Assembly (NCBI RefSeq): GCF_001625215.2
Contig: NC_030388.2
Span: forward strand, 26,834,558 to 26,898,557
DNA from: Daucus carota subsp. sativus
Taxonomy: Eukaryota; Streptophyta; Magnoliopsida; Apiales; Apiaceae
DNA length: 64,000 bases
Direction: 5' to 3'
Part shown: in pieces, positions 5,983 through 45,300 of the stretch
Position numbering within the stretch: position 1 is the first letter of the stretch
Layout: the number at the start of each line of letters is the position of its first letter
Notes under the pieces: model-generated
What the model was told of the DNA's origin: nothing
The model's input: the letters and a program-made list of their open reading frames with translations, nothing else
Databases searched by the model: none
Made by a program: the position numbers and the translations under genes

Positions 5983-6038
5983 AATCACGTGATTTGTTTT
6001 TTTTTTTTTTTTTTTTTTTGAGAATCACGTGATTTGTT
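5983..6038 (-). repeat. Mini-insertion: T-run flanked by a 16-bp direct repeat
   Basis: AATCACGTGATTTGTT occurs at 5,983-5,998 and 6,023-6,038. Between the copies lie 24 bp: 21 T followed by GAG. Read on the minus strand this is CTC plus poly(A) between target duplications, as left by a retroposon truncated almost to its tail. Confidence 0.7.
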
Positions 6039-6087
6039 ATTTTATATTTTATTTATAATGTAAAATTGGAAATTTGTAATATGTTAC

Positions 6088-6201
6088 CTGAGTTAATTCC
6101 TCCAATAGCACGGTCAAGATCATTTATCCTCTTTAACGACAGGGTCTTGTAATATACAGGCATCACATACACAAGTTGTGATGGCTGCTGATGATTAGGA
6201 C
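6088..6201 (-). other. Exon-like 38-codon segment of unknown gene
   Basis: On the minus strand an acceptor-like ATTCTCAG ends at 6,202 and a donor-like CAG|GTAACAT follows 6,088. The 114 bp between are open in one frame, with residues including QLVYVMPVYYKTLSLKRIND. It lies downstream of the F-box pseudogene. A decayed copy of its 3' half plus donor sits at 17,731-17,775, downstream of another F-box copy, so it belonged to the duplicated block. I do not recognise the family. Confidence 0.3.
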
Positions 6202-7026
6202 CTGAGAATGAAAAAATAGATACTAGTATCTTGGTGGCAACACATACACAACAGCCTTTACATTGTGCAAAGCTGTTCAGAAACCGTACAATTAGTGTCG
6301 CTGTCTAATAGCAAATTCTTATTATTAGCAGATCTGAATGGCACCGTTTACTTATCCAACTTAGTATCTGACAAAGCTACAAAATGCAATATTGATGCTT
6401 GCAGTTAGTACTTGATTCATTCGTTTGGATAAGACATGAATTTACAATTAGGTTTCTCTAGTGTGTGCCCATGGGCACATGCTAGAAAAACCGTTTACAA
6501 TTACATCATAATTAGATGAAATAATTCATAGCTTTTCTGACTGAAAGATATGAATTATCAAAATATATCTTTGTTTAATGAAATAACTTTAATCCTGGCT
6601 TTCAGCTACTGACATTAACGCTGGTGATTATCACAGGATTCAAATTAATTAAAACTCTGCTTAGTTATTCAACATATTACATTTATATCTCCTATATATG
6701 TGTATACTCATTCAATTCAACTGATAAGTGATCACCTTGTTTTTCTTAGCAGTACTGTACATAGAAAGTTGTCATATATTTTGATCAGACCAGATGCACT
6801 CTGAAACCCTTTGTGAAGGGTCAGTACATGCAAATATATAATTAAAACAACAAAATATCGCATTAAGCAATACATTAACTAGTAGAATCTAAACAAATTC
6901 AACAAAACACTAAAGCAAAAATTCCAACTCCCTTGTGGCTACTCTTTCCACCATTAACATCAATCGGAAATACCTTCACTCATCCATTCTCAACTCCCAT
7001 CCTGAAGAATCCTGCAACCTCAAAGA
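6202..7026. other. Duplicated flank of the minus-strand F-box block
   Basis: This stretch aligns by eye with 17,935-18,540 (for example CTTTAATCCTGGCTTTC at about 6,590 and 18,108, and GCACTCTGAAACCC at about 6,794 and 18,312). Shorter parts recur at about 12,360-12,550 and 27,240-27,390. No intact gene is visible. It records segmental duplication of the F-box gene with about 1 kb of its 3' side. Confidence 0.6.
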
Positions 7027-8159
7027 TTAAGCAGCCCACTTGATTCGTTTGAATCCCGTGAGTGAAAACAAGCTCTTCGTATACTTAAGAGATTCACAGT
7101 GTGCAAACTTAGGATAACTAGGGACTTTCGTGGTTAATTTGTTATTCGAGTTATACAATAACCCATCACCTCTTACGTCAGATAGTAAAAATTGAATATT
7201 GTTAAAAAGGCCCTCAACAAAGTTAAACGACACACCTACTTCAAGACTGAGCACTTTAGTCCATTATGCCTCAACTCCACCGCCAGAAAGACATGCCTCA
7301 TTGTCTAATGTCCACAATTTAATCTTATTGTCCCAAATACTATCATAAGAAATGAAGGCAATAGTATCCTTGAATTCAGCGATGTGCGTTCCACGACAAC
7401 TCTTAACATCATCAGAAGAACCAACAGGGAGCTTAATATCACAAATAAACACCTCCTTGTTTAAATCAAAAGCAATCATAGCTTTGATACCACTGATACC
7501 ACTATAGTATCCCATTGCTAACAAAAATCCGTGAAAGCATACATGAAATTCGATGTATCCGGAGATATGAATAAGCTCGTGCTTAATCTTTCGCCAAGCA
7601 TTCCTGTTTGAAGAATAGACCTCGGCAGAAAGACTTCCATATATAACTCTAAGCCTAAAGCAGCACCAAACATAGTAGCATTGGGTATAGTATAAGGGGG
7701 AATGAGCTTGGACTGCTTACTGGCGGGATTCCAAAGATATAAATCATCATTCCTCGGCTTGGAGACACAAACCGAGACAAAGAATCCCACATTCCGAACC
7801 AATAAGTAGAGAGTAGTCTGGCTCAAAGGGATACTCACCTCGCGAGTAAGGAAAATTCAAATTCTCTAAAATGCGCTTCAAATCGAGATGATAGAGTGAG
7901 AAATGGCCGTCATCTCCTACTTCGAGATGATAGCCTCTTTTATGGTGAACGATGAGGATTTGATCATCTTTAGGAGATGTGATAAGGCGAAACGATGACT
8001 CGAAATAACGGAGAACCATGATTTGGACACCGATTTGAATCAGAGTAACGACTCGAATGGAAGGCGGAGGAAAATCTCAGTCCACAGATCATCAGTGAAA
8101 TAACTCATAACTAGTTCCCAGTGTTTTGGAGTTCTCTTGGTCTCGCTATTTTCATCCAT
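7027..8159 (-). pseudogene. F-box/FBA pseudogene
   Basis: The copy begins at ATG 8,159 (MDENSETKRTPKHWE) and ends in KRIKWAA at 7,027, so both ends of the gene are present. Inside it is broken many times: a TGA in place of the Arg codon within the F-box (ESLL*FKSV, about 8,041); a loss of about 10 bp after the F-box (SHL to PKDD) that shifts frame; further deletions around the CVSK and GFGFDH regions of the FBA domain; and a TAA within EASWTK (about 7,266). The closest relative by eye is the intact gene at 18,543-19,727. Confidence 0.9.
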
Positions 8160-8359
8160 ATTCAAAGAGCTTTGCCGCCAAATTAGGGTTTGGGAATAAA
8201 AGAATCGAGATTGATGATTGTTTTCTTATTAAGCTAATTCTCTTTTTACTTTAGGACAGAACCGTGGGAAGCTAGGAGTCGGACAGGAGAGTAAAGAAGC
8301 GGAGGACTTCAATGGGTCGGGTTTTGATTGGGCTGAGCTTAATTCAAATTTAAATATAT

Positions 8360-8409
8360 AAAGTTTTAAACTAAACTCTTTTTTTTTTAGCAAAGTTTTA
8401 AACTAAACT
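8360..8409 (-). repeat. Mini-insertion: T-run flanked by an 18-bp direct repeat
   Basis: AAAGTTTTAAACTAAACT occurs perfectly at 8,360-8,377 and 8,392-8,409. The 14 bp between are C, a T-run and AGC. On the minus strand this is GCT plus an A-run between target duplications. Confidence 0.75.
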
Positions 8410-8561
8410 TAAGTTTATGGGACTCTTAATTGGGTGGAATTTTGTTTGTTATTTAAATTCATATATAATGTAGTTCAAATATATTTCTAATTTTATATTT
8501 ATTTGAATATAGTTTATGTATTTATTCAACTTTAAAATTTCAAGTATATTAGTAAAAAAAA

Positions 8562-9226
8562 GGGCTTTTTTTATTTATAACCACGTTTTCAATCTTATTT
8601 TCAAAAATACCACCTTCTCCAATCTTATTTTCAAAAATACTACCTTCTCTAAAATATTTTCAAAAATACTGTGGTTGCATATGCAACCATATATGCAACT
8701 GAATTCCTGATTTCAAGTTCCAGTTTTCAAATGTCATTTTCGACCTCATATTTGGAATCCATATATTAGATTGCAATAAAATCAACTGAATGCAACCTCA
8801 TATGCAACTAAATGCAACCTCATATGCAACTAAATGCAACTGAAAACTGTAAGTTACAACTGATGTATGGCTGCCCCTGGCAGGGCCATTAGATTGCAAT
8901 AGAATCAACTGAATGCAACCTCATATGCAACTGAAAACTGTAAGTTACAACGGATGTATGGTGTGCCCCTGGCGGGGCCATTAGATTACAATAGAATCAA
9001 CTGAATGCAACCATATGCAACTGAATACAACCATATGCAACCATATATGCAACTACAATTCCTGATTTCAAGTTTCAGTTTTCAAATGTCATTTTCGACC
9101 TCATCTTTGGAGTCGATATATATTTTTGAAAATATTTTAGAGAAAGTAGTACTTTTGAAAATAAGATTGGAGAAGGTAGTATTTTTGAAAATAAGATTGA
9201 AAAAACAGTATACAAGATAATTCCCC
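8562..9226. mobile_element. Mutator-like MITE with long inverted arms and an internal minisatellite
   Basis: The 665-bp element starts GGGC and ends CCCC, flanked by a 9-bp duplication TAAAAAAAA (8,553-8,561 and 9,227-9,235), the target size of Mutator-like elements. Long arms (about 8,590-8,680 and 9,115-9,200) are inverted copies with repeated TATTTTTGAAAATA-type motifs. The centre holds about two copies of a roughly 110-bp repeat (containing GTAAGTTACAAC, GCCCCTGGC, CATTAGATT) and many GCATATGCAAC motifs. A direct repeat (ATTCCTGATTTCAAGTT...) stands next to each arm. The A/T-only duplication makes the exact edge slightly uncertain. Confidence 0.75.
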
Positions 9227-9235
9227 TAAAAAAAA

Positions 9236-9800
9236 TTCAAGTAAAATACTTTTCCTTTAAAAATAGTAATATCTTATCAAAAAATTTTAATTATTTAATT
9301 TAAATAAAACACTTAATTTAGATATAATATAAATTTAAAATTATTTTAATAAATTTATATAAATTATCAGGCGATTTGACCGCGATTAACTAGTTCCAAA
9401 TAAGGTGATAAATACTTTAATGCTTATAGAATAATGAAATAAATTTTGTCATAAAATAAATATGGTTATTAATCTTTCTATTTGAAATATATTTCCTTCT
9501 CATCATCAAATATAAAAAAATTCCTATTTTTAATAAATCATATTTATATACTTCTAGGATATACACTCCTCAATTAAGAAAGTCATGTCAATTATTTATT
9601 TCATTACATCAAGATAATTTTCACTTAACGAACTAATCATTTTATATCTAAAAATATTTTCCCATAACTTAGACCTTATTTTTGGTTCATCATCTACATA
9701 TAATTATTGTTAAGAAATATATTAGTATCCTTTACAAGTAGTACTATTTATTTTATGCACGTGTAAAACGACTCTGTTCTGACAAAAAAAAGGTCTGACT
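9236..9800. other. AT-rich upstream region of the F-box gene at 9,920
   Basis: No coding signal is visible. The last about 300 bp (GGAAAGTCAT, CACTCCTCAATTA, GTGTAAAACGACTCT) align with 15,110-15,390 upstream of the second plus-strand F-box gene, so the promoter was duplicated along with the gene. Confidence 0.5.
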
Positions 9801-9814
9801 GTTGATATATTTAA
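9801..9814 (+). promoter_or_regulatory. Conserved TATA-like box upstream of F-box gene
   Basis: GTTGATATATTTAA lies about 110 bp before the ATG at 9,920. It is identical to the box at 15,403-15,416 before the other plus-strand F-box gene, within flanks that are otherwise AT-rich and diverged. The match to a TATA box is by motif only. Confidence 0.5.
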
Positions 9815-9919
9815 GGGGCTTCTCATTCTCATAATTGTCTCTTATGAATTCTCAGTTGTCTTATCATGTCATATAAACACCTATTGCTTTCAGGCAATAA
9901 TTTTCGAGTCTCTAGAAAT

Positions 9920-11146: not shown

Positions 11147-11477
11147 TGAAGAGTAGTAGGTGGAAGTGATGCTGGAGATGATTTAGTTTTTGTTGGCCGG
11201 GTGCCAGTTGATGCCATGCTAGTTTGAAATATTGTTACCTATGTATGTTTTAACTTTTAAGAGTTCTCATATTATTTTTCTATTAATTTTACTAGTATTA
11301 ATGCTTTTGGGTTATATTCCAAATTCTTGTTAATTAAATTTCTTAAGCTGCTCTCAAACCTCAGACGCTATCATCACTGCCATCAACATTGTACTTTTTT
11401 AAAAGCCTATCATCACTGCTATCTATCTTCAATCCTCTGTTTTCCCATTTAATTTATGTATATGTAATTTTATAAGA
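11147..11477. other. 3' flank of F-box gene, present twice in the window
   Basis: The segment GAGATGATTTAGTTTTTGTT...ATGCCATGCTAGTTTGAAAT at 11,174-11,340 recurs at about 29,335-29,525 without its gene. The next part (CTATCTTCAATCCTCTGTTT, about 11,420) recurs at about 24,206. No coding frame is visible. Confidence 0.55.
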
Positions 11478-11848
11478 GCCTATTACATGGCAAACAAAAA
11501 TCCGTGCATTACATGGATTTCATTGTACGAAATATTACAAGTTTGTAGCTGAATCATTCCCCATTTTTTCTTATTACTAGAATACAACTCGGCGGAGGGA
11601 TTGTCTTGTCTGGTGCAACTCTCACAACTTTAAAATCTAAACGAGATCATCTTTGGGAGCAATTGCGAGGTGTGATTTGGCGAAACAATGGCATGAAATA
11701 ATGGAAACCATGATTTGGAAACCAATTTGAATCCAAGTAACAACTTTATCGGAAGGCACAGCAGAATCACAGTCCACAAATCATCTGTAAAGGTATTCAT
11801 CAACGTTTCCCAAGTTTTTGCTGTTCTCTTGTTCTTGACTGATTCATC
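11478..11848 (-). pseudogene. Truncated F-box/FBA pseudogene with lost start codon
   Basis: The position equivalent to the family start reads ATA instead of ATG (SSLNIDES at about 11,848). The frame covers the F-box (FTDDLWTVILLCLPIKLLL), shows a frameshift after KSWF, and then jumps from the PKDD region directly to the middle of the FBA domain (YSSNKKKWG...MHGFLFAM, about 11,480-11,590), so roughly 100 codons are missing. Everything after HGFLFAM is absent. A frame from an upstream ATG (11,878) exists but is not convincing as a gene. Confidence 0.85.
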
Positions 11849-12559
11849 TATATTCAAAGAGCTCATATAGCAAAGCAAAGACAGGGCTTAAAAATGCTCA
11901 ACGTAATCAGATTTCAGAATGATTATTTAACACGATTCCTTCTCTCTGTTCTACTCTATCATTAGCGGTTGATTTTCTTCTTCAGCTCAAATTTCAGCTA
12001 GCTAGCTCTACACCCGGCTACCACTATCTATAGACTCTTTCTGCGATTCCTTCTCTCTGTTTAACTCTATTCTCTTCAGTCTGTGACGCTTCTTTTCTTC
12101 TTTTCTTTTCTTTTGGTCAGAAGTCCTTGCCACCTCTGAATCTAAACATACACACGGCTGATATCATAGTTACAAATTGTTCTTAGTTACAATTTCCCTT
12201 AATTACTCGGATCCGAGCTAAAACTAACGACTGAAATGATTACATGCGTATTGACCTGTTGTTAGTCACAACTTTGTTATGATCACAGAGCAAAATTTTG
12301 CAAATTCTTCACTATAATTTCGCCTGTGACATGAAGCAGATTTGGACGACGCCCTTTACATATCCAAGTTGGTATTTAGCAAAGCTACAAAATGCAATAT
12401 TGATGCTTAGCTGTTAGTACTTGATTCATTCGTTTGGACCCAGACATGAATTTACAATTTTTTTTATAGTTGGATGAAAGAATTGATAACTTTTCTGATT
12501 GAAAGATATAGATTACCAATATAAATCTTTGTTTAATTAAATAAGGCCTTGAGAACTTA

Positions 12560-14465: not shown

Positions 14466-14511
14466 AGTAAATTAAATGTTTCTCTCAAAAAAAAAAGTAA
14501 ATTAAATGTTT
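14466..14511 (+). repeat. Mini-insertion: CTCTC plus A-run with 16-bp direct repeat
   Basis: AGTAAATTAAATGTTT occurs perfectly at 14,466-14,481 and 14,496-14,511, separated by 14 bp, CTCTCAAAAAAAAA. It has the same architecture as the other mini-insertions, here on the plus strand. Confidence 0.75.
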
Positions 14512-15402
14512 AATTTCAAAATTGTTTCGGGAAAAAAGTTTATTTTCAAAACACTTAGAATAAAAAAAATATAAAATTATGTGCATTTTGTTGTGAAATA
14601 AAATAATATAAAAGACTAGAATAGAGAAATGGTAAGTTCAAAGAGTAAGAGTTAAAGAGTTAGGAATACAAGAAGTCATCCATATAATTGTTCATAACAC
14701 TCCCTCTTGAAGAATATGGATCATATTATTCCCTTTTTCTCTTTTTAGTTGTTCACTTTGCAAAAAACACACATATCAGAGCTAATAAAAGCATGGTAGA
14801 ACCATGGTAGGACTAGGAATAAAAAATACAACCCAAGATACTACCTAGCAATACCAAAACATAGATACCTTATAAAGCTAGCTAATAACTTATCATAGAA
14901 TATATGAATATGATAACTCATTCCTCATTCCTCTTTTTTTTTTTTCAATCCTTTTTAGTTAAGATGCAACAAAATAAATACTATTATTTTTTTTTCTATT
15001 TAAAATATATATTTCATCTCATCATATATGTATATAAAAAAATTCAATTTAAATAGATCGTCTTTGTATATTTCTATCCTTTTTTTTGTTAAAGAATTGT
15101 ATATTTCTATCAGAAACACTCCTCAATTAGGAAAGTCATATGAACTACTCATTTTATTATGTCAAAATAATATATTACTATAATAAAATAACATTTCTAT
15201 ATAAAAAGATTTTTTTATGATCAAATAAGGTTTAAATCTTATCTTCGGTCGAGTTCTTCGTATATATTTATATAATTATTATTAAGAAAAATATTAAGAA
15301 AATAAAAATATTTCTATCGTAGATACAATCTCAATCTGCAAGTAAACAGTTTATTTTATGCATGTGTAAAACGACTCTTTTATGAGATAAAAAAATCTGC
15401 CT
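14512..15402. other. Intergenic region between divergent F-box genes
   Basis: AT-rich with no coding frame. It contains one mini-insertion (15,064-15,111) and, from about 15,110 on, the duplicated promoter segment shared with 9,560-9,800. Confidence 0.5.
15064..15111 (-). repeat. Mini-insertion: T-run flanked by a 15-bp direct repeat
   Basis: TTGTATATTTCTATC occurs perfectly at 15,064-15,078 and 15,097-15,111. The 18 bp between read TTCTTTAACAAAAAAAAG on the minus strand. The homologous segment upstream of the other plus-strand F-box gene (about 9,545-9,565) reads through this site without the insertion, which dates it after that duplication. Confidence 0.7.
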
Positions 15403-15416: not shown

Positions 15417-15725
15417 ACGTCTTTCTCATTCTCATATAGAGCGCCAGTTTGTTTTACGAAAGTGAAGGTGTTTTGATTTTCCACTTTTAAGAAGTCAGTA
15501 ATGTAACTTCTCTCTCACATTTCTGATTTTTTTCAAATATTTTATTAACTTATTTATTTCTCACTTGTAATTCATTTCATTACTTTGCCCAAACGGTGCC
15601 GTAGTCTCTCATGACTTCTCAGTTCCGAGACTTCTCGGTAGTCGGTTCCCATATCATGTCATATAAACGCCTGTTCATGCATGATTTGTGTGCTTTCGGG
15701 CAATAATTTTCGAGTCTCAAAATAT

Positions 15726-16943
15726 ATGGATGAAAAAAACCAGAGGAAGAGAACTTGGGAAAGAGTGCTGAGTGAATTTACAGATGATCTATGGACTGAG
15801 ATTCTCCTGCGACTTCCAATAAAGACCTTACTTCAGTTCAAATCCGTTTCCAAATCATGGTTTTCCATTATTTCTAGTCATCGTTTCGCCACATCTCACC
15901 TTGCAAATGCTGCTAAAGACGATCAGATTCTCATCGTACGCTATGATATAGATGATTATGAACTGGAAGATGAAGAAGACTATTTTTCACTCTTCCACCT
16001 CGGTTCAGGCTGTACATTAGAGAGTCTTAGATTTCCTTACTCTCAAGGTGAGTATCCCCCGCATATACCATATTGTAGGCTTATAGGCTCAGAATGTGGC
16101 ATTGTTTGTGTTGAGGTCTCTGTCTCTCGCTGGCGTGCCACTAAAAAAGACGTTGATATATATCTCTGGAATCCTGCAACAAAGCACTCCAAGATCATTC
16201 CCCCGCATACTGTAGTCGATCAAAGGTCACAAATGGCTTTCGGGTTTGGATTTGATCATGTAGACTTGGATTTTAAAGTTGTTAGAATGGTAGCAGCTCC
16301 TCTATCCCCCACGGTCTATTTGGCTGAGGTCTATTCTTCAAACAGGAATACTTGGCGAAAGATTGAGCCCACGCCTACTGATTATCCGAACTACAATCAT
16401 TTTGATGCATCCTTGCACGGATTTTTGTTTACCATAGGATATTGTGGTATGATTGCTTTTGACATAAATAAGGAGGTTTTCATTTCTGATATCAACCTCC
16501 CTTATTCTCTTGGCGATTATGCTTATTTTGAAACTCGAGTTACTGAATTTAAGGATAGTGTTGCTACCATTGTCTCTGTTATGTACAAAAGAAAGATAAA
16601 GTTGTGGACATTGGATGATGAGGCATGTCTTTGTGGAAGTGGTGGAGTTGAGGCATCATGGACTATAATGCAGGTTGTCCATGTAGGTGTGAGAATACAA
16701 TTCGTTGAGGGCCATTTTAACGATGTTCAGTTCTTAATACTCGATGAAGATGATGACAGGTTTTTGTATGATTCGGATAAGAAAGCCACAAATGTCCGTA
16801 TTCCTCCTTATTTTTCAGGTCATAATTTTTTCAAGTACAGGAAGAGCTTGTTTTCACTCGTAGGATTCAAACGAATCAAGTGGGATGTTTCATATTCAAG
16901 GCAGCACGATTCATCCGACTCGGATGTAGAAATAGATGAATGA
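15726..16943 (+). CDS. F-box protein with FBA domain
   Basis: A single-exon gene of 405 residues, MDEKNQRKRTWERVLSEF to SDSDVEIDE. The F-box (about 18-58, DDLWTEILLRLPIKTLLQF) is nearly identical to the gene at 9,920. The FBA landmarks are LIGSECGIVCV, YLWNPATKHSK, GFGFDHVDLDFKVVRM and EVYSSNRNTWRKI. The C-terminal tail (SRQHDSSDSDVEIDE) is acidic and differs from its paralogue. An in-frame ATG at 15,681 would add 15 residues; the shared Met-Asp-Glu was preferred. It is tail-to-tail with the gene ending at 18,543. Expected role: substrate receptor of an SCF complex, target unknown. Confidence 0.9.
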   Translation: MDEKNQRKRTWERVLSEFTDDLWTEILLRLPIKTLLQFKSVSKSWFSIISSHRFATSHLANAAKDDQILIVRYDIDDYELEDEEDYFSLFHLGSGCTLESLRFPYSQGEYPPHIPYCRLIGSECGIVCVEVSVSRWRATKKDVDIYLWNPATKHSKIIPPHTVVDQRSQMAFGFGFDHVDLDFKVVRMVAAPLSPTVYLAEVYSSNRNTWRKIEPTPTDYPNYNHFDASLHGFLFTIGYCGMIAFDINKEVFISDINLPYSLGDYAYFETRVTEFKDSVATIVSVMYKRKIKLWTLDDEACLCGSGGVEASWTIMQVVHVGVRIQFVEGHFNDVQFLILDEDDDRFLYDSDKKATNVRIPPYFSGHNFFKYRKSLFSLVGFKRIKWDVSYSRQHDSSDSDVEIDE

Positions 16944-17429
16944 AAATGATCCGATTGATGATAATATGATAATGGGACACCATCTCTTTCCCAGGAAAGT
17001 GGTTACCACAAGGGAATGATATTTTACTTAATGAGGATGAAGTTTTAGTTCCAGACAAGGAAATAATTATCCAATTGCTAATATGTGAGATTCAAGTTTC
17101 TGATATATATATCAGTTATTGTCCTATTTGTAGATGAGTCCTAATTTGGGTCTCTAGATAAATTTTTTGATTTGAAGAAGATGGTAATGGATGAGAGACA
17201 CCACCACAGTATTAATGAAACAGGGATATTCTTAGCATGCTGCACTGTGTCAAAGTGTACACAACTAGGAGTGTGAAAAATAATCAACTGAAGTTACATA
17301 ATGCAAGCATATATTGTCGTGTTTGATCTGGCAAATGGTAATCTACTCATAGTGTTGCACAAGACATAACATTATTAACAAAACCTACATTGTTTAACAA
17401 CGATGATTTAAAATCTGCGGTGTTGAGGA

Positions 17430-17625
17430 AAAGGAAAGTCTAGGGCACCTTGACATGGCCCCTTAAATTCGAAGATTCGCCATTTTCTCTCATAGTTGTT
17501 CCTGCACACTATCCTGTTTTATACCTCTGCCAGCATTGTTTCAAACTTGCTGAATGCCTCCAGTGGTTCCACATCTGATGTCCACTCTGGACTGTCTCCC
17601 TGATCAAGATAGATATTATTTGTAG
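17430..17625 (-). pseudogene. Lipoxygenase C-terminal fragment (relic)
   Basis: On the minus strand this reads IYLDQGDSPEWTSDVEPLEA then [19 protein letters not shown], which aligns with residues of the intact lipoxygenase at about 30,330-30,510 ([20 protein letters not shown]). It has an in-frame TAA (V* in place of IE) and a frameshift after NNYE. Only the region after the last iron-binding His/Asn remains, with no upstream exons. The flank 17,040-17,400 also aligns with 29,830-30,180, next to the intact gene, so a block containing an F-box 3' end and a lipoxygenase 3' end was duplicated. Confidence 0.85.
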
Positions 17626-17754
17626 AATTTCTATTGTTTTAGGAAATATAATTTACTTTTATTGTTTCTAATTCTGAACTCCCCTGTATATTTTATTTAT
17701 CATGTAAAAATTGGAAAATTGTAATATGTTACCTGAGTCAAATCACCACATTGT

Positions 17755-17866
17755 ACAGTCAAGATCATTTTCTCCCCCATTCTGCACATTCCTCTCTACC
17801 CTGTTTTCTGACAGTCAAGATCATTTTCTCCCCCATTCTGCACATTCCTCTCTACCCTGTTTTCTG
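17755..17866. repeat. Perfect 56-bp tandem duplication
   Basis: Two identical 56-bp units (17,755-17,810 and 17,811-17,866), each starting ACAGTCAAGATCATTTTCTC and ending CCTGTTTTCTG. They lie in the duplicated 3' flank of an F-box copy; the paralogous site near 6,115 has only one diverged unit, so this duplication is local and recent. Confidence 0.85.
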
Positions 17867-20027: not shown

Positions 20028-20079
20028 AAGTATGAATTCACATAATTTCAAAAAGAAAAAAAAAGTATGAATTCACATA
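20028..20079 (+). repeat. Mini-insertion: ATTTC plus A-run with 17-bp direct repeat
   Basis: AAGTATGAATTCACATA occurs perfectly at 20,028-20,044 and 20,063-20,079. The insert between is ATTTCAAAAAGAAAAAAA (18 bp). Confidence 0.75.
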
Positions 20080-22774
20080 TAATCTAATATGATATTTGAT
20101 TAGGTGAATTTCTATTAATTATTTAAAATTGAATACTTTCTTTTACCCAAAAATATATTATCTTTATCTGAGTGGTTTAACTAATTATTCAATTTTAAAA
20201 TTTTAAGCAAAATCTTTCCGTTTAAACAATTGGTACATTTTATCGAAACTAAAAATATATATATAATCATTTGATCTAAAATAAAACACCTCATTTAGAA
20301 TCAAGGAATTCTATTTAAAGGGACTTATTAATAATATATGTAAAATATTCCATCATCAATTTTAGTGTGTTTAAATTTTTAGTTTAGATCGAGTAACTAA
20401 ATATTTTTTATAATTATTTTTTTAATAATTTAATTTTATCGACTAAATTTGTAATTTTAAAAATTGATAACAAATAAATCCGAAATTAATTTAAAATAAA
20501 ATATATAGATAAAACATCAAACAGTTTGTCCATTATTAACAAGTTCAAAAAAAGTTGATGTATATTTTAATATTTATAGAAAATGAATCTCGCCATCTTG
20601 AGGATGAAGCAACTAGCTACTTTTCTTTTCTTTTTTTAAGGAAAGCAACTAGCTACTTTTTTTTTTGTCATAGAAGCAACTAGCTACTTGATTCCTTTAA
20701 ACCCTAGAAATGAAATTTAGAGATTTCTGTGATTTCTTCTATCATTTAACTCTATTTCTTTCGTCATTTGCTAATGTGAAAAGATTTCAGAAGAAATGAT
20801 AATATTAAAATTAAACAGTGATGTACCCTTTCATATTTTGCCATTTTAATTATAATGTTTAATTAGTTTAAAGTAACTAATTATTCTTATCCTTTTCTAA
20901 TTAGTTGTAACTAATTATTTCCACATGACTTTTTTCCAAATATTTGTATTTTAAAATTTTATTTATTCCGGTATATTTGCTGGATAAGGTTGAAACGAGA
21001 GATTACTCTCAGGATCTGATACGTTTTAGACAATAAACTAGTTTTATAGCCCGTCATGGTGAAGATACACAAACATGAAATTATAAAAATTTAACAGTGT
21101 ACAATAATGATGAATGTAATTTACTTTGTAGAAATCTTTTAGTTGGGTTAAGAAATGAAATTTGTTCAACAATTTTTTCTCAAAGAATTCTAGTGGTTGT
21201 AAAAATGAAATCGAGATCATAAATATTCTATCTTTCTAGGGTACCATCTTGAAAATAAACATTTATTAAAACTCTGTAAAATACAAAAATAGCGTAGCAG
21301 ATGCAAATATATTGATTAACCATCTATTGACTAAAATTAAATCATAATGTGACTATAATTCCCAACCACTTGTTCATGTATATATTATGTGGCTCCATTC
21401 CTGTTTCAAATTATCAATCCACACCATGTTATTATTTTCTGGTCATATCAGATTTTAGAGATTGTTTCTCTTGCACACTAGCACCAAAAAGTATGAGACT
21501 CCACTTTTGTAGTAGTCCCACTTTGATAGGTATCATATTTAAATAATAACCCATCAGTATTAGTATCAGGTATGCATTACCATAGTAATTATAGTGTTAT
21601 CATAGATAACCTGGTCATATTTACGAAGCATGCAGAATGGAAGAGGGTGCATTCTAAATTCTTAGATGACATGCTAATTATGTTTCTTCATTTGTTGAAT
21701 GATTTCACAAAAAAGAAATTTAAGAAATAACACTTTAAACAGTGACACTTTTAAGGTATCTTAAAGGCAATGCAATCATAATTTCTAAGAAGAATTCTAC
21801 TCACCGGATAATTTATTAAATCTCGTCCTTGTCCTCATGTGGTGCAACTTTCTAAGAAGAACATGATTCATATATCTCTACGCACAGAAAGCAATGAGTT
21901 TTGCACATGCAAATAACATTAAAATATATATGTGACCACCAGCGAAGATATACAAGAGAATTATAGCAGGGAAAAGTATGTTTTGATAGGTAACCTGAAT
22001 TACATATGGTTGTATAATATTTGTGGCTGCTCGATGAAGTTATTTTGACTAATAAGAAGAGTTATGAATTTATGACTGATTACATAAGAAAATGCAGATA
22101 TAGAGTCTGTAACCTAGAGGAGCTGATGAAGAATTGTAACACAGAAGATCAGAATTGCAAAGGCCTATGTATGAAGATATAAAATATATCATAATTGGAC
22201 ATTTTCTTGCGTGGCTGATGAATGGACTGTATCATATATATAATAGATGTATGTGTTGCCATCTTTATCTAGGAAACCAAAGGTCATATAATTCAGAATG
22301 TGCAAGTCAGCTAGAAATAAAAAGTAACCAATAGGAAAATTGTTGGCCAGCATCAGCTATTCAGTGACAAACAATGAAGTATAAGATTGAGAAACTAAGG
22401 CAGAGAATAAAGGAAATATAAGATTACAGCCCCAATCCAATGTTGAAGAGCCAAAATATGTGTTTTGGCACACATACTTATTCGAGCCTTTTAACCATTC
22501 TCTAGCAGAATAATACAAATGGCTTGCAGATATTCAAGGAATTAAGGAACTGGCTAGCTAATAGTACAACCACACACCGGGGTTTTAGTCGTAAACATAC
22601 GGGCCTCCAGCTAATGTTCTTATCTCTCCGCTTCCTAAGTTAGTAGATCACTATCACCTCTACCTGTTTCGGCCTATCACCTGGATCAAGTACCTGGAAC
22701 TGAAAAGTAAACACTTCGCAAACACACTCATGAGAAATCAGTATATACCTCAAGTCTTGCTTTCTTTCGAAGTT
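20080..22774. other. Gene-poor AT-rich region
   Basis: No convincing gene. It contains the nested mini-insertions at 20,607-20,689. Between about 20,900 and 22,700 I see only short scattered frames and no inverted-repeat ends that I can support. Confidence 0.4.
20607..20689 (-). repeat. Two nested mini-insertions at one target
   Basis: AAGCAACTAGCTACTT occurs three times: 20,607-20,622, 20,643-20,658 and 20,674-20,689. The first gap is T-rich ending AAGGA; the second is a T-run ending GTCATAG. On the minus strand the inserts read TCCTTAAAAAAAGAAAAG and CTATGACAAAAAAAA (ends approximate). The simplest reading is one insertion that duplicated the site and a second that used one of the copies. 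Confidence 0.75.
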
Positions 22775-24623: not shown

Positions 24624-24682
24624 TATTATTTGAACTGATCATATTTTGAAAGAAGTTAGTATGATTCAACTTTAAAGACTTA

Positions 24683-24995: not shown

Positions 24996-26932
24996 TCAAT
25001 ATACTTATATAAAGGAGAAGCGAGGGGCGTGTAGGTGGCGCCTCTCAAATCGCTCCGTTTTATTTTTCTAATTTTTTGGAATTTTTGGAAGAAAAATATC
25101 AAAAACTAGAAATACCTTTTTTAGTTTCGGATATATTAGAAACAAGTGTCAGAATCTGATTTTGTTTCAAATTATTTATGGAATATAGTAGCTTAAAAGT
25201 TAATCTGGTTTTGTTTCTATATAAAGAAGAAGCGATAGAACTACCTTTTTTTTAGTTTCGGATATATTAGAAGCAAGTTTCTTGAAAATTTTAATCTGAT
25301 TTCATTTCTATGTAAAGGAGTAGCGAGGGGCGTGTAGGTGGCGCCTCTCACATCGCTCTGTTATATTTTTCTAATTTTCTGGAATTTTCGGATGAAAAAT
25401 ATCAAAAATTAGAACTACCTTTTTTAGTTTCGGATATATTAGAAGTAAGTTTCAGAATGTGATTTTGTTTCAGATTATTTATGGAATATAGCAGTTTGAA
25501 AGTTTTGGCGCCTCTCAAATCGCTCCGTTTTATTTTTCTAATTTTTTGGAATTTTTGGAAGAAAAATATCAAAAACTAGAAATACCTTTTTTAGTTTCGG
25601 ATATATTAGAAGCACGTTTCAGAATCTGATTTTGTTTCAAATTATCTATGGAATATAGTAGCTTAAAAGTTAATCTGGTTTTGTTTCTATATAAAGAAGA
25701 AGCGATATAACTACCTTTTTTTAGTTTCGGATATATTAGAAGCAAGTTTCTTGAAAATTTTAATCTGATTTCATTTCTATATAAAGGAGTAGCGAGGGGC
25801 GTGTAGGTGGCGCCTCTCACATCGCTCTGTTATATTTTTCTAATTTTCTGGAATTTTCGGATGAAAAATATCAAAAATTAGAACCACCTTTTTTAGTTTC
25901 GGATATATTAGAAGTAAGTTTCAGAATCTGATTTTGTTTCAGATTATTTATGGAATATAGCAGTTTGAAAGTTTTAATCTGATTTTGTTTCAGATTATTT
26001 AATTATGGGAAAGAGTAGCACACAAGTCTCTCTACACCTATAAATACTCCTATAGGTTGTAGGGTTTTGGATCATCTAAACACAACCTACTCTCTCATAC
26101 CACAGTCCTACCTCTCTCTCTGGTGATAATTCTCTTACTCGATTTTTAACTCAGTGGTGCCATTCTTCTGCAACGATAAGTGAAGGCTGTTTATACGGTA
26201 TTAAAAAATATAAAGGTTGTTGCAAGTAAAAAACCGCTAGGTGGGAGTCGACAAATCCAAACACGGGAGAAGAATATAATATTGACATGATATTGATGGA
26301 TGATATCAATAAATTAACTATTAGTGATGTATGTTTGTTGATTATTCTTTTATAATACATGTTTTGTTCATCGGACATGTTTGTTGTTGTTTATTTTTAT
26401 ATGATTTGCTTTGTATACAGGAAAATATTATTCATGCATTATCTGTTTGCTCCGTTCAAGTAACTTTTAAGTGAAGGCTATTTATACAGTATTAAAAAAT
26501 AAAGGCTGTTACACGCAAGGGTAGTTATATAGACTGCTATCTCACGGATTTAAGTTAGATGTTTTTGTGCACGATCAATCCAAAAAAATTGGAGGAAGGT
26601 GACAATGTAAGAACATGATAACTTTTCAAAAAAAAAAAAACACGTATAAAATTAAGATTTGTTGTGCTTTAAATTGTTAATTACGTGTAGAAAGATATTT
26701 TCATCTTTTCACCATGAATTATAGTCCAAATTTTGCAATTTTATATATTAGTATTGGTATTACATCAAGATTTTTATAATATAAAATTTATTTTATCCTA
26801 CAAATATTAATTTTTAAGCATTAATATACTTTTTTATAGACAGCCACAAAATTATTGTATTCTGCAAAATATTAATATTGAATAATTAATATAATTTTTA
26901 TAGGCCGCCGCAACGCGCGGCTTCTCAACTAG
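24996..26932 (+). mobile_element. Helitron-like non-autonomous element
   Basis: The right end has a GC-rich hairpin (GCCGC 26,904-26,908 pairing with GCGGC 26,917-26,921), 7 bases, then CTAG at 26,929-26,932 followed by T: the Helitron 3' signature. The left end is TC...TATATAAAGGAGAAGCG, beginning at about 24,996 after an A. The element is about 1.94 kb and has no Rep/helicase coding. Inside are a 470-bp tandem duplication and, at 26,035-26,150, a promoter-like stretch (CTATAAATACTCCTATAGG). The 5' boundary is less certain than the 3' one. Confidence 0.65.
25037..25976 (+). repeat. 470-bp tandem duplication inside the Helitron-like element
   Basis: The unit 25,037-25,506 is repeated at 25,507-25,976 with few differences. 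Each unit itself contains two related halves beginning GGCGCCTCTCAAATCGCTCC and GGCGCCTCTCACATCGCTCT. The element's left-end motif (GCGAGGGGCGTGTAGGTGGC) is therefore present three times (about 25,020, 25,324 and 25,793). Confidence 0.8.
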
Positions 26933-29750: not shown

Positions 29751-29887
29751 TAAATGTTTGTATAATGTACCTCGCGATCCAGACAAAAAAATGTACCTGA
29801 GGGATAGGCCTAAAAATGGTTCATCATATAACAAATGAAATTGAAGTTTCAGTTCCAGACAAGAAAATTAATACTAATACAATTAAA

Positions 29888-29930
29888 AACATATGAGATT
29901 GATCCTTACAAAAAAAACATATGAGATTGA
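29888..29930 (+). repeat. Mini-insertion: TCCTTAC plus A-run with 15-bp direct repeat
   Basis: AACATATGAGATTGA occurs at 29,888-29,902 and 29,916-29,930, separated by TCCTTACAAAAAA. The paralogous block at about 17,080 (TATGTGAGATTCAAG) lacks the insertion, giving an empty-site comparison. Confidence 0.75.
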
Positions 29931-30246
29931 AGTTTCCCATATCTTCATAATCCCAAGTCCTAGGATAATTTTTTGATTTGAGCAAAAAGGAGAGGGATCA
30001 GAAGCACTGCAATAGTGTTAATGAAACAGGGGTATTCTTAACCTGCTGCTCTGTGTTAACAGCTGGGAGTGTGAAATAATCAACTAAAGTAACAAAATGC
30101 AAGCATTTATTGTCGCGGTTCGATCAGGTAGTATTGCACAATACATAACATTATTAACAGGAACTACATTGTTTGGAAAATTGATTTACAATCTGGAAAT
30201 TTACCCAATTGGTTTAAGAACTTAAAGAAAAGATTTACTTTGTAAA

Positions 30247-33200
30247 TTATATGGAGACGCTGTTTGGAATACCCTTTCCAGTAAGCCCACTTGTTTTGCT
30301 GTAGTCTGATGTGTTAGGGTAAAGCAAAGTGTAAGGCACGTTGACAGGGCCCCTTCGATTGGCCAGTTTCTCGTCGTTGTTCCTGCAGACTATCCTGTTT
30401 TCTATCTCCGCCAGCTTTGATCCAAACTTTTCAAATGCCTCCAGTGGTCCAACGTCTGAAGTCCACTCCGGATTTTCTCTTTGGCCTAGATAGATTTCAT
30501 CCGTGGAATGCCTGGACAAGATCTCGATCAGAGAAACTCCCAGGAGTGTTGGTAGCTGACTTGTGATAGTTTTCAGGAATGCTGATTCAGGGTGTTCCTT
30601 GAGCTCTTTGTACTCTGGAGTGCCTGGCTCGGGCATGAAATGGCGGCTTACAGTGGGGCGGTTTGGGAGGAAACCAGCATAAGGATACTGACCAAAATTG
30701 ACTGCAGCATGTAAAGCTGAAGCGACCCATATAATGATGGAGCAACTCAGAACAAGATCTTCCCGTGTCTTCATGTCAGGCCACCATGGATCATCTTTCT
30801 TGTCACCATGGCCTACATTGCGGAGCTCTGACCACCATGATTGAAGTTCAGTGTCAGCTTCGACAGATTCGTCTGTTGAGTAATAGAAAGAGCAATAATC
30901 CTTCACCCAGATCTCAATTGCTGACCAGATTTCAAGGCCATCGACAGCATAAGGGTAGTCCTCTATCAAAAGTCTAAGGCCATGGGGCTGGCTCGTATCT
31001 GGAACTGCCATTCCCCTGAAATAAAAAATTGGGAAAAGGTTTTACTTTGCTCCTCAAAAATATAAGTGGTGCTTGTTATATTCTCAGGGATCAGAATTAC
31101 CTCTTTAGCAGATCGGCAGGAAGTGACTGCTCTGTGAAAACCCAGTTCTTATACACAAAAGAAGACATTTCCATTGAAAATCTAGCTGGAAACACTGTCC
31201 TCTCAACGACTCCACCAGCATTAATGAGGATCTGTCTAGCAAAGGCATTTATATGCATTGTGTCACGGAAGTGTGGATGCAGAAGCTTATATATTGGATG
31301 AAGCACGCTCAGTTGTCTATTTGCTGCAATGACAAATGGCTCAATCACTGCATGAGTGTTTAGCCTGCAATTGAAATAAAAGAAATCAGATTTGCATGTC
31401 AATCTTAGCTCTCTATTTTTATTTAGTGATCTCTGTTTTGGTTTCATTCATTGCGTGATATGTTATTCTTCTTGTTCAGTTTTTCAGTGTGGTATGTTTT
31501 GTTTCCATTCATGTGAAAAGTTTATTATAACAAACCAGTGGCTAATGAGCTGATGGTAGCCTGAATCATTAACAGCAGCATAAGCTTTTGCTAGCTGCCA
31601 AACTGAACCTTCAATGCTGTTCTCTGCTGGGGTAAACACTTTGCTGGTGGCACCGTATTTATCTCCTTGTGCATGAGGTAGGCTCAATTCAATTGCAAGT
31701 GGCTTCAGTTTTCCATCATCTTGGAGTAAGAGAAGTGTCCGACTAGCATAGGTCTTTGTATTTGTTGTGTTGATTCGTGCCAGATATGGCATCAGTGCAT
31801 CGTGATGATCTAATATGAACAGTTTGTTGTTCTCAATTGCCTGTATTTTTATAAAATTAGAATTGATGAAAGGCTGATAATTTGTTCATATCATAAGATG
31901 CATATGATGAGCGAACAAATGGTTATGGAAAGTCACCTCCTCTATGGTTAACCCATTCATGTTTTGCTCAATGTGTTCAAATTTGATTGAGCTGGTTTGA
32001 TTGCCATATATCTCTGGATCAAGCCGGCTAGCAGGTGGGAACTCCTGTAGGTAGAATAAGAAGGAAGCTATGAATCAAATTACTTGAAACTTAATCCAAG
32101 ACAACGTACTCTGAAAGTTGCTATACATGAAGGCAACGGATGGAAACAGGATTCACTCCAGCAAGCATTTCACGCGCAAATTCTTCATCTGTGCTCCATG
32201 CACTTTTGTCCGCTGTATTTAGTTCAAGAGAAATTTAACAAGTTTTAGCACGCAACATTTTACTGAATGTATGTAAAGAGCTTTGTTAGGATTACCTTTA
32301 ATGACATCGGGCATTGGGAACTTGAGGAGTTGCTCACCATCAGAACGAACAATCTCTTTAAGCAACTCCCAGGGGATACATTCCCTTATTTTACTGAGTT
32401 TCTGTCCATCTGGTAAGTCAATACCGCCTTCATAGAGGTCATACACATCCTTAAAACTGTCAAACTCATTGGGAGTCTTATCAAATATAGCTCTGACCTC
32501 TGGTGCTATTATCTGGCCAAGTGACTTTACAGCATAAGCGATGAAATCTGAAAATTTTATATGATTGAACCTTTCATCCCGGGGAACATAGATATCCAGA
32601 CTTAGCAGCGGCAATCTACTTTCAGAGTTAGGATCTGTAATGTTTTACAAAATAAATTGTTTTTAAAATAGTATCAGGTGCCAAATAAATGTATACTGTC
32701 ATTTATGTTAAAATTGAACAAGTTTAATAACATGTAGTAGGAGTAGTTTCTAATATAAACAGATAGTTTTATAAATTATGGTTCTTACCATTTTTGTGTT
32801 GATCGCGTCCTGTTCTTCCTCTACGAGGGTATGGGTATTCCTTAGATCCCCCAAGCACTGGGCGAGAATATTCTGCGCCCTCCTCTGGACTTCCCAAATC
32901 ATTATAGTATGCATAATCGTAAACTCTGTCCCACTCCTTTAACATGCCTGATCCATTTCCGCGAAGATTCCTAAGTTCTTCTTCTCTGTAATGTCTTAAG
33001 AATTCTGGTGTTTCATGTGGCAAGTAACACTGGTATACAAAGTCAATATAGTAGATTAGTAGTCAGATTATTATCTCCTTGTGAAATGGTCTGCGTGATT
33101 ATATTAGAGCACTCCACCTAAGAACATATTATGCTCTGTTCTACCCTTAATCTGGTAGGTAATGTTGTTTCACAAATTATTTTTAAAAAAAAAATTCTTT

Positions 33201-39311: not shown

Positions 39312-42300
39312 ATGGGAGAAAATATTACTACCCCCGTCTCGAATTCAGGCAAGTCCTATCATGTTTGCTTAAATTTATCCTTTTTGTTTTGTTAAGTATC
39401 TTGATTTTGATTTGTGTTATGTAATTTTTTTGTTATGTTGGGTTCTTGACGTTGTTTGTGTTGATCAGTAAATTAGTTTGTAATAAGTGGGGATTCTCTT
39501 ATCTTGCTCAAGCTGAAAGCTTAGTGCTTTGCTTAAAAGTTAAAAGAAGCAACCTTTAAAAATGTGTTAGAGCATTTTGTGAATGTGTGTGTGTGTGTGT
39601 GTTTGCTTACTATATCTCACTTACCCAGATTGTTATGTTTGGATTTTTCTTGTAATAGTTGTTAAATTTGGATTTCCCCCCTTTTTGTTTGGATGTTGTT
39701 CAATTTGATGACGTGGATATTGTTTGATGACTTAAATGTGGGCATCGTTGTTAAATTTTTCCGTGGTAGATACATGATTAGTAGGGTATGTATTGTGTTT
39801 TGTGATCTTTGTATCACGTTTTAGTGATTTGTGTATTGAATGTTACCTCAAGGAGAAGATTCACGAATCAGAATTAATAAATATATATTTTTAGCTTTGA
39901 GGAATCAGTTCTACAATTTTAGCATTTTATGCAAAAATTTAACGCGGGACTTAAGAAGAGAGCCCTCTGATGTTATGTCACTGAGGCAAAGATAACAGAA
40001 TTGGGAGTTAAGAATAGGCATGACATAAAATTTGCTTACAACTCATTGAGTCTATCAAATCAATAGTTTGAACAAGCGCTTATTATATATAACAAGGCTT
40101 ATAGTAGCTACTAGTCCCTTGTACATATGCTTGTAGCACCTGTATATGAAGTAATAACTACTTATGCTAACTCAACAAGCTATTTATCTAATTCTATGTA
40201 ACCGATAGATTGTACAAGTTAAGAAAAAGTTTGCATAATGTTTGTCGTCCTTCCCCATATTGTGTCGTAGCCTGAATGTAGTTAAAAGTTAACATAGGTG
40301 CCTGAGAAGTTAGTTCTGATTTACAAAATGCTTTCTAAACACCGCCTATGCTTCCACAGTTTTCCTACTGTTGTATCCAGCATTTTATGAAACTGAACTG
40401 ACTACCGAAGCTTAAAGCTGTATAGTATTATGGAAATAGTGATTCATTTCTTTTAGTTTTGGTCAGGTTCGGGAAGTCTTTTCATATAATAATGATGGCA
40501 AGGCAAGGCAGAGTATTTAATTGATTGCCCTTAGTATACTGTTTGTAGTCGAGATTATGTATCTTCAGACTTTAGCAATTCTCGAGAGTTAAGAAGCCAA
40601 AGGCTGTTGTAAATTAATTTCGTTCCATTCAAAGATGGTGACGTTGTGCCAAAATTCTAAAACTTAAATGACTGTGCAGAGTAGATTTTAGTTTTTGTTT
40701 ATCCCTCGAACATGGAAATTGTAGGTTTATGTTTGTGTGTATATAATCATGATGAAGAACAAAGATTTACTACAAAGATGTAATGTGAACTGATATATTG
40801 TTATGTTAATGAGCTCACTATAAACCATTAACAAAACCGAAAATATCCTATTTTTCTCAAAAAGATCCTTCAATATCAAAATTATTTAAACCAATCCTAA
40901 TCTATAACTAAAGATTTGGTTTACAATGACCAATTATTCTTCACAATCTAAAAAATAATTTAAATTATAGAATTTATTTTGAGCATAAACAACTGTCAGC
41001 TTCAGGCCTTTAATTTTTTTTTTCCCTGAATAGCATATAGCCTAATATTTTTATATTTAAAAGTTAAAACTCTCTTGACACTTGTCCACTTGGAAACAAT
41101 CTAATGATCGTCGCACATGCACGGATATTCTCTTTTGAATAATATTAATACACTGAGGATTAAATTTAACAAGGGACGAGGAGGAACAGGCTTGTACATA
41201 TGTTATATCTTTCTGTATAATCAATTATGAGGAAATTGGTAGAGTATTCATAGGACAAGAATTTTATAGGCTAAGAGTATATAGTGCATAAGAGAAACTC
41301 CAATGCGAGCCTGAGTGCTGCGTTGGAGAGAATGCGCTGGATCTCTTTACAAATTCATGTGCTGGAGGGGAGAGTTGGACTTGGTCACTGGTCAGGCCCG
41401 AGTAGTTGGGCTGACAAAGTGTAACAGCTTTTCTGCTGTGTCATACTACTTTTCTACTTTTTCTACTCTTCTGCTGTTGGCATGGTGCTGAGTGCAAATG
41501 AGCCTTTTTAATATTTTTTATATATGAGTTAATTTTAGAAAAATTATTTATCATTCAAATTATTTAATTGTAGTAAAAAATATTTTTTAAAACTTTAATT
41601 AATATAAAGTAAAATAATATATAAAATAAATGTAATATATAAAGTAAGTAAGTGGGACCTAAATAAGTTGGACTTGGGCTTTGCATTGAGGAAGTTAGAC
41701 AATTTTTCTATGAAACTAACTTTCACTTATGTGGCATATAAATGGGTCCCAAAAAAGTTGGACGTGGACTTTTGCATTGGAGATGGTCTAATAACCATAA
41801 CAATTAGCAAGCGTAAGTTTTCAGTTTCTAGTTTACAAGCAGTACCATGCGAGTCAGTGCTAAGACTTTCTTTTGTGCTCACAATTAGATACAATATACA
41901 ACCACTGTGTAAGAATAAAATTACTGGCATCTATGGAATATTGTAAAATTACTTTTGTTGATTAGTATCTTCGGTGTCCCTGGATGTCTGGAACTAAAGA
42001 ATTATTAATCCATTTTTCTTTATTTTTAAACTTCCGTCCAATTTACAACCCCTAAAAACTCCCGTTTTGCTTGCCTTTTTGGTTTCAGATGAAAGAACTT
42101 ATGTCCAGCTTTCTTGATATAAGTGGTGTGTTAGTATCTTCAGTTTGATAAAGTTGTTATATATTACTAGTACTTTACTAAAGCATATTGCTTGCTGTTG
42201 CATCGACGGTTAAAATCTCTTCGCTACAGCTTATTACTGCTTCTGTTGATCTGTTCCATAAATAGAATTCCGATGCTCAAAACTTTAATGTAGTATGATT

Positions 42301-45300
42301 ATCGACGTTACTAAGTGATTATGGTAATTGTGGGATAATAATGGGAAACAACATGGTGTTAATTTAGTAACCTCAAAACATGAATGTAATTCAGTTCTAA
42401 AAAGGAAGGGGCATTGGGTCTCTTCCTCCCAAATTGGTTAATCCCGGTAAGATTCTATTGTGACAGAATTGCTACTTTTTGCAGGACTAAGCGGCAAGCA
42501 TCAGCAGGAACTGGAAAATTTGAGACTCACAACACAACCATTCAAAACATTGAAGTTCTTCATTTTGGCTGTTGTTCAGTATCTTAAGAGATTGTTACAG
42601 TATCTTCTAGGGCATGGATCTTGGCTCATTCCCATGGGTGTTGTCCTGGTAGCAGGTGGTATTCTGCTTCTGAACACTGATGGTCCTCATGAAAAGGTAT
42701 TTTGGCCTTTCAACTTTCTGTAGCTTCTTTTTTATGTTAATATATTAGAACAAAACAAATTGCAATATGCAAGTCAGTGAGCTGGAGAAATATTGGGATA
42801 TTTCTTTTGCTGAGTAGATGAATTGTTCAGAATAATTTGAAGTTTATTAGAATTATATTGAATTGTTCCTAGAGCATCTGTATTTTTAACATGTGGTTAG
42901 CAGCATGAGTAAAATTTCAAATAATTGCGATAAATAGATTAGGTTTCAACATACCTTATTTTCAGTTTTTATTGTTAGTACCATTGGAATGAATATGCAG
43001 ATTCAGTATTTGTATTAGTACCATTGTAATACCATTTCTTTCATCATTATGAACCTAAAACAACCAACATTACACATTGTTGCAAGATTTTGGGGCTTTT
43101 TAGGATTTAGCAACACAGCGATGTTACCTAATCTTTTTAGCTCGGAGACTTTAACGTCCCTGTGAGAAATATAGCTCTGTGGTGTACACTAACCTGCCTT
43201 GCATTGGCCTTTTCTGTACAGCACATTGAAGAGCTTTTTCAATATCTACAGTTTGGATTATGGTGGGTGGCCCTTGGTGTTGCATCTTCTATTGGTCTTG
43301 GTAAGAAAAAATTATAATTCCAGCATGCTACGCAGAAAAGCTCCAAAATTTAGAACTTCTTCTCTTATCTTAGTTTGGTATATATATGTATGTATTTAAT
43401 AGCTACCTATTTGCAATTCCTAGACGTCCTTTGTGATTGCCATCATGGTAAACTGTTGGTAAACTTTTAGCAGACGTGTCGTCCCATATACACGAGGCAT
43501 AATATCTAGAAATCTTGCACCAGAGGGGTCTTCACTTCTGTATTTGCAACCAAACATTTTTTTTTGTCAGCTATTAAATGAGGTTTAGAATATGCACATC
43601 ACTGGTATAAACTATCCAGTATCCAGAGATAGAATTTTGGGTTTAGATCAAAACAAAAATATTTGAAATACAAATAGCCATGGTACGATAATGTAAGATG
43701 CAAGGAGTCAGGGACGAAGCAACATAGGGGCCAGAAGGGGCCATGGCCCCCCCTAGGGTTTTCATAGTATTGTAATTTTTATTATATAATTTTGAAAAAA
43801 ATTGTATTTTATCTATATATTTATTTAAATATAAAAATTTGGCCCCCCTCAAAAAATATTTGTTCGCTTCTAAGAAATATTTAACATTGTAAAATAAAGT
43901 TTTAATTCTTAGATTTTTCTAATTTATTGTATTAGACCAAATTTAAAAATAAAAATAAACAAAAATATGGATATATATACAATTATACTATTTAAAATAA
44001 AAAAGATCGTAAAATGTGATATGTGATAAATATAAATGTCAATATGGTTCTTCTTTAAAAATAAGAATCTTTGATGGAGGTCTTATCCAAGAAACTTATA
44101 TCTCACTTCACTTCTTCATTTTCATAGAATAGTTAGTCCTCGTGCATTATCAATTTATTATTTAATATTAATATTGATCTACTCATCTTCAATTTAAATT
44201 TCATCATCCAGGTAATATTTTTACTTATTTAAATTATAACTTGTCATCTTCTAAATAAGCATAATATTTTTTTTAAGTATAATAAACATAATATTTAGTT
44301 TTTGAGATATTGTCAAAATACAATTTCATTTAATGTGTGTTACTTGCTAATTAAAGTTTACTGTATAACTTAGAGTTATTATGATGAGTTTCCTGACCAT
44401 TTTATACTTAAATATATTTAAAGAGAAATAGCTAAATATTTTTGTTGACATAATTATAAATTTGATTTCCTGATTTAAAAAAACGCAAAGCTCTACTATA
44501 ATTTTTTTACTAGTATTTTTGTATTAAATTTATAATGAATATTTTACAATGATGATGAAAAATTTTACTGTATCGAAGAAATTTTTTTTGGCCCCCCTCA
44601 CAGATGTTTGATGGCTTCATCCCTGCAAGGAGTTCTGAGCTGGCTCCAGAATAGGAGCATTATCTCTAATAAGGGTCGATGCTTGCATATATGGAAAATA
44701 ATTTGAACAAAACACTCTCAGAGCCCAATATATAAACCGGAACTATGAGATCTTACTTTAGTTTCTTATAATAAATAGACATTGATGATTAAAGCATTTG
44801 GGTAGTAGCATAAGTACAAAAGTATAGATCCACACACACACAAACTGGTAATTGTCTACAAACAAAAATTAGTAAACACCCATACTAGAACTCTATAACT
44901 TGAGTTGATTAATGTGGTTTAAAAAATGGTCTTCTACTTCTAAACAGAATGTTTATTTTTGTAAGGTTTGGCATTTGGCTGTAGTACCTACAGATGTCCA
45001 GTACTACTTATATTATATATGCTTTACTTGTATTATTGGAAACAATTGTATATTCTATGAAAGTTTTTGTCTCTTTCTCTGTTTTCCAGTTTAATATGTT
45101 AACATGTGTATGTGCATGTGTGAACAACTGAATGCACATCAAGTGTAAAAATGCATAGATCTTGGTTATAATTATTATTTGAATCCTCGAGCTCTTCTTT
45201 CACGATTCTTGATAATATTACATCATGTGACTGAGAAATATATCACCTTCCAGTTGGATTCTAAAATGTAACTTTCTTATGTTTTCACCTTTGCAGGATC

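Follow-up and report, generated by a model that had tools for sequence, protein, structure and literature searches.

Mini-insertions of A-tails between direct repeats in carrot: probable, almost bodiless products of L1-type reverse transcription

The closest described counterparts of the insertions reported here are the human 'simple poly(A)' insertions, which make up 3 of 48 events in an older survey quoted in the accessible part of PMC3219598, and which appear as 'pA' in rows 121-124 (4/124) of the table available from PMC4859970, three of them with a deletion and no duplication and the fourth with a 6-bp duplication and a 120-base tail. In the excerpts available, the authors of the NF1 study suggest that a simple poly(A) insertion represents an Alu, an L1 or a processed pseudogene that was severely truncated, and independent insertions at one site are described for human NF1, in one case with an identical 15-bp duplication (PMC4859970). 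For flowering plants, the available text of PMC3747384 carries the proposal that L1 elements, which are long interspersed nuclear elements (LINEs), recognise nothing but poly(A), and it treats processed pseudogenes as known. Here we describe a class of mini-insertions in carrot (Daucus carota), found in a 64,000-nucleotide stretch of contig NC_030388.2 (positions 26,834,558 to 26,898,557; 'the window'), in which eight insertions at seven places each combine direct repeats of 15-18 bp with a 'stub' of 3-9 other bases and an A-run on the correct side. Judged from genomic sequence, these are probably the outcome of L1-type target-primed reverse transcription that was primed in trans on the poly(A) tails of various RNAs and broke off almost immediately.

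As far as the available excerpts describe them, human simple poly(A)/poly(T) insertions share with the carrot insertions the A-run, the near absence of a body and the L1-endonuclease-like sites; in contrast, they are given there as rare and mostly without duplication, whereas in carrot the duplications are mostly 15-18 bp, the tails are short and the insertions are frequent. Repeated hits on one site, reported in the same excerpts for human NF1, occur likewise in carrot, both at 20607 and where a second insert lies on the first in the 44254 repeat family. Plant processed pseudogenes and retrogenes are similar in that poly(A) RNAs are reverse-transcribed in trans, which the accessible part of PMC3747384 attributes, as a current view, to L1-clade LINEs with relaxed 3'-end recognition; they retain a recognisable gene body, whereas the carrot mini-insertions hold at most about 11 bases. 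The poly(A) short interspersed nuclear elements (SINEs) of plants also combine an A-tail with a target duplication, but the mini-insertions have no SINE body. The initial annotation of the window knew of no name for such a plant class, although the human simple poly(A) insertions had already been described; a search with narrow terms, confined to open-licence literature, found no plant report of one. What seems to be new is a plant genome in which the poly(A)-only outcome is frequent and accompanied by full target duplications.

That annotation had listed nine sites. All nine are present as it described them, with the A-run on the correct side by eye in 9/9, and the eight insertions at seven places are upheld, but the remaining site, at 44254, is carried by a repeat family and is not an independent local event. 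Two entries in its list of stubs are revised: the first stub at 20607 reads TCCTT and not CCTT (one base is ambiguous with the repeat), and the family stub at 44254 is ATACTTAC in 9 of the 16 readable copies. The sites, and the two paralogous segments used for comparison, are as follows.

5983..6038, minus strand: mini-insertion; 16-bp repeat at 5983-5998 and 6023-6038; insert CTC-A21 in tail orientation, a 23-base run including the As common with the repeat.
8360..8409, minus strand: mini-insertion; 18-bp repeat at 8360-8377 and 8392-8409; insert GCT-A10-G.
14466..14511, plus strand: mini-insertion; 16-bp repeat at 14466-14481 and 14496-14511; insert CTCTC-A9, a run of 10 counting the repeat.
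15064..15111, minus strand: mini-insertion; 15-bp repeat at 15064-15078 and 15097-15111; insert TTCTTTAAC-A8-G.
20028..20079, plus strand: mini-insertion; 17-bp repeat at 20028-20044 and 20063-20079; insert ATTTC-A5-G-A7.
20607..20689, minus strand: two mini-insertions in one common 16-bp target, with three copies from 20607, 20643 and 20674; inserts CTATGAC-A8 and TCCTT-A7-G-A4-G.
29885..29930, plus strand: mini-insertion; 18-bp repeat at 29885-29902 and 29913-29930; insert TCCTTAC-A3, a run of 8 counting the repeat.
44254..44295, minus strand: decayed mini-insertion that belongs to a dispersed repeat family and did not arise locally, from comparison of family copies.
9453..9660, plus strand: paralogous segment, empty site for 15064, from alignment scores.
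17030..17106, plus strand: diverged paralogous segment for 29885, with one copy by inspection (by eye; the scores tie).

The first 20607 insert, 44254, 8360 and 15064 (the last two having a G beside the repeat) are each missed by one strict rule or another, and their layout is alike by eye. Mini-insertions contain 9 of the 84 A/T runs of at least 7 bases in the window. A possible further decayed mini-insertion, with 12/14 bases matching, lies at 39643-39672 and is doubtful.

Scans for this layout were set against two controls, namely dinucleotide shuffles in 2-kb blocks (n = 100) and the reversed sequence, in which composition and runs are unchanged and the tail falls at the wrong end. In the comparison with shuffled sequence that the initial annotation had proposed, made here on the window, exact repeats of at least 12 bp enclosing an insert of 7-40 bp with an A/T run of at least 7 near the correct end numbered 7 (the loose rule counting the run as near the other end too in two of these rows), whereas none of the 100 shuffles held any; for repeats of at least 14 bp of any kind, the count was 16 against a shuffle mean of 0.03. 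An exact scan anchored on A-runs and reaching to 6 kb gave seven properly oriented inserts, 10-24 bp long. It also gave rows in the tandem repeats around 25 kb and, at 3.6-5.9 kb, three more that are taken as chance or array copies. On the reversed window, by contrast, it found no insert shorter than 106 bp. With up to two mismatches allowed, 8 of 20 rows in the proper orientation had a gap of at most 30 (one of them the doubtful 39643), against none of 13 in the reversed control, where the smallest gap was 59. Chance or replication slippage might be suspected in AT-rich DNA with 84 such A/T runs, but the shuffled and reversed controls lead us to reject it, filled and empty copies of one repeat family (below) speak against it, and a 16-bp non-repetitive duplication around new bases is beyond slippage; we give this explanation next to no credence, and the rejection of slippage in the initial annotation stands.

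Copies with and without an insertion were sought in the whole carrot genome (441 Mb, 11 contigs), and the 44254 family is the cleanest proof of insertion with target duplication. The joined-flank search for this site returned 64 matching rows, some copies being represented by two, and 16 copies were read besides the window's own (17 in all). The mini-insertion is present in 16 of the 17, L041 being deleted there, and is therefore ancestral to the family. A second mini-insertion, nested on the first, is carried by ten copies (L042, L043, L047-L053 and L057), while six have a single-copy empty site and one is deleted; it comprises a repeat of about 14-16 bp, TGTTTATTATACTTAC (tail orientation, with slight differences between copies), flanking TCCTTTTC and an A-run of 8-9. 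Among the empty copies are the three of greatest divergence (70-73% identity), and absence of the second insertion is therefore the ancestral condition. In the window itself, the paralog of 15064 at 9453-9660 scores 139 bits with the joined flanks and 84 with the filled sequence (206 and 177, respectively, in global alignment). The diverged paralog at 17030 is the sole other genome match for 29885 and has one target copy by eye. At 5983, homology to a dispersed repeat reaches precisely to the border of the target duplication and no further (5998-6043), and five of six other copies of that repeat have one 16-mer. Copies of the 5983 repeat (window 5937-5988; L003 and L007 near 1500-1595) also contain short tandem duplications, about 21-24 bp long, that lack A-runs.

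The class is also found elsewhere in the genome. A sample of 25 10-kb stretches (249,800 non-N bases), being the first 20 and the next 5 from a random list of 160, held about five further cases (L013:6454, L028:850, L012:8940, L033:1658 and L015:6562), although the repeats of L028 and L012 are only 12 bp, the tail of L012 is short, L015 has one mismatch and the stub of L013 may be absent. Rows set aside were satellites (L023, L026), seemingly internal repeats (L011, L028:1333), low-complexity sequence (L012:1719) and two palindromic rows of L030. Two control rows in the sample fell below 100 bp, one being the L013 case read backwards and the other having a gap of 94. The density is about 2 per 100 kb in the sample against about 12 per 100 kb in the window, which was chosen for showing the class and whose excess is biased upward; by rough extrapolation, there would be several thousand mini-insertions per genome.

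The junctions were left-normalised, and their L1-like score was compared with random positions treated alike. The eight junctions (AT/AACA, TT/AAGT, TT/AGTA, CT/GATA, TC/AAGT, TC/AAGT, TT/AAAA and CT/AAAT, the slash marking the junction) score as L1-like, that is as TT/AA, with p = 0.0006 when set by hand with 44254 corrected and p = 0.010 in the automatic set, an outcome in keeping with the LINE-like nick site that the initial annotation had proposed to test for. The L1-endonuclease site used as the reference has the form TTTT/AA on the nicked strand. Repeat lengths over 15 events are 12-18, with a mean of 15.7. In rice, tandem duplications reportedly arise from the repair of staggered breaks, and such repair, in which fill-in gives a tandem duplication with filler bases and A-runs lengthen later by slippage, would likewise leave a short direct duplication and sometimes filler. 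It is matched here by the 24-bp tandem duplications without A-runs that copies of the 5983 repeat carry, and by further short direct repeats whose spacers are not A-runs; however, it predicts neither a one-sided A-run, nor TT/AA-like junctions, nor pyrimidine-rich stubs ending in C, and we regard it as a very improbable source of the mini-insertions.

Stub statistics were drawn from 14 events, omitting L013 and representing 44254 by its family's stub. Pyrimidines account for 75 of 97 stub bases, a share as high being reached in 0 of 20,000 draws from 300 control A-runs, and for 40 of 50 bases in the window stubs alone (permutation p = 0.0004). The last stub base is C in ten events, T in three and G in one, against C in 71/300 controls (p = 0.0002). 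A pyrimidine-A step within a U-rich stretch characterises the poly(A) sites of plant mRNAs, and the composition of the stubs agrees with such sites; 3-11 bases are too few to assign a gene. As to local templating, which we reject, no second copy was present within 500 bp for three stubs of 7-9 nt, and the 6-nt stub ATACTT had one, with 0.9 expected. The two inserts at 20607, which have different stubs, use one 16-bp target, and new A-tails may supply new nick sites.

LINEs are present in the genome as 1372 candidate zf-RVT domains, of which 150 were scored, all above the cut-off and many in frames of about 1190-1390 amino acids. Their 3' ends, defined as the A-run after the last frame, are GGC-An or AGC-An in 5/5 read, whereas a terminal GC is absent from all 14 stubs, so that the match of stubs to LINE 3' ends for which the initial annotation had proposed a test is not found. 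This comparison bears on whether the mini-insertions are extreme 5' truncations of a LINE's own RNA, with cis L1 retrotransposition failing mostly just past the poly(A) tail. The enzyme and structure needed would be identical, and carrot does have LINEs with long open frames, in whose 3' ends a C precedes the A-run, but the mismatch between the five ends (from LINEs chosen for their long frames) and all of the stubs makes this origin unlikely. Of the two options that had been offered, LINE abortion and priming on bare poly(A) ends, we accordingly disfavour the first, and we favour priming on the poly(A) ends of other RNAs because none of the 14 stubs resembles the GC-An ends of the LINEs. Carrot SINEs, with RNAs that likewise terminate in poly(A), would be a further source if subject to extreme 5' truncation, and poly(A) SINEs are given as common in flowering plants in the accessible part of PMC3747384; yet the stubs differ from one another, so a single family cannot account for all of them, and we assign this source an equally low probability.

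Target-primed reverse transcription with almost no body, as put forward in the initial annotation, draws support from the orientation of the tails, the filled and empty copies, the L1-like junctions, the further genome cases and the shuffled controls. In the mechanism that we propose, the L1 endonuclease would nick one strand at a TT/AA-like site, and the freed 3' end would pair with an RNA's poly(A) tail. Reverse transcriptase would then copy the tail and about 0-11 bases of the RNA 3' end before halting, and second-strand cleavage some 16 nt away, followed by fill-in, would give the direct repeat. The templates would most likely be diverse polyadenylated RNAs, for the most part mRNAs, recruited in trans, and each insert would in effect be a processed pseudogene truncated nearly to nothing. 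Whilst target-duplicating insertion, the one-sided A-tail, L1-like junctions, stub composition and LINEs with long open frames are observed, we infer the enzyme, the use of mRNAs as templates and the cause of the early stop.

Several points weigh against this mechanism. Clear empty sites are limited to one window site (15064) and one family insertion: global scores for the 29885 paralog tie at 128 and 128, making it weak as an empty site, and no genome match elsewhere spans the sites at 8360, 20028 or 20607. The junctions at 15064 and 14466 (2/8) are poor or partial matches to TT/AA. In the 5983 repeat family, L003 has two 16-mers in a tandem duplication without an A-run, and short duplications therefore also arise here in other ways. 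Finally, ordinary truncation ought to leave some longer A-tailed insertions, and there is no excess of these at 35-2600 bp, the sample giving 22 rows in the proper orientation and 34 in the control, and the window 7 in each.

The window contains F-box genes in a tandem array (Pfam F-box was found in 2/2 tested), with one F-box protein coded at 15681-16940, and much of the flanking DNA is paralogous. Outside the window, the best named matches of this protein come from Apium, Heracleum and Daucus carota. The segments at 17030-17628 and 29834-31011, at or beside a lipoxygenase gene piece (Pfam Lipoxygenase 30247-31011) in the array, are paralogous to each other. At 25036-25975 a 469-bp unit is tandemly duplicated with 98% matches and a 167-bp sub-repeat, and at 17755-17866 a 56-bp unit forms a perfect, probably recent, tandem duplication. 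Direct repeats of 964 bp, 100% identical and about 3.7 kb apart, occupy 49206-50169 and 52901-53864 and look like those of a recently inserted long terminal repeat retrotransposon.

We suggest, more tentatively, that when L1 target-primed reverse transcription takes place near genes, its most frequent result in carrot, and perhaps also in other plants whose L1s are relaxed, might be a micro-retro-insertion of 10-30 bp that samples mRNA poly(A) ends; such events, at thousands per genome, might be a main source of A-tracts and small insertions, re-inserting at their own tails and going unseen by repeat annotation. If the class is general, small A-tract insertions in plants would record L1 endonuclease activity far more densely than full LINE copies do, resequencing data could serve to map the target sites and rates of plant L1s, and a share of poly(A) tracts would be explained. 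The early stop of plant reverse transcription would become a question that can be asked, and a mutation class likely to be missed by both repeat annotation and indel callers would come into view.

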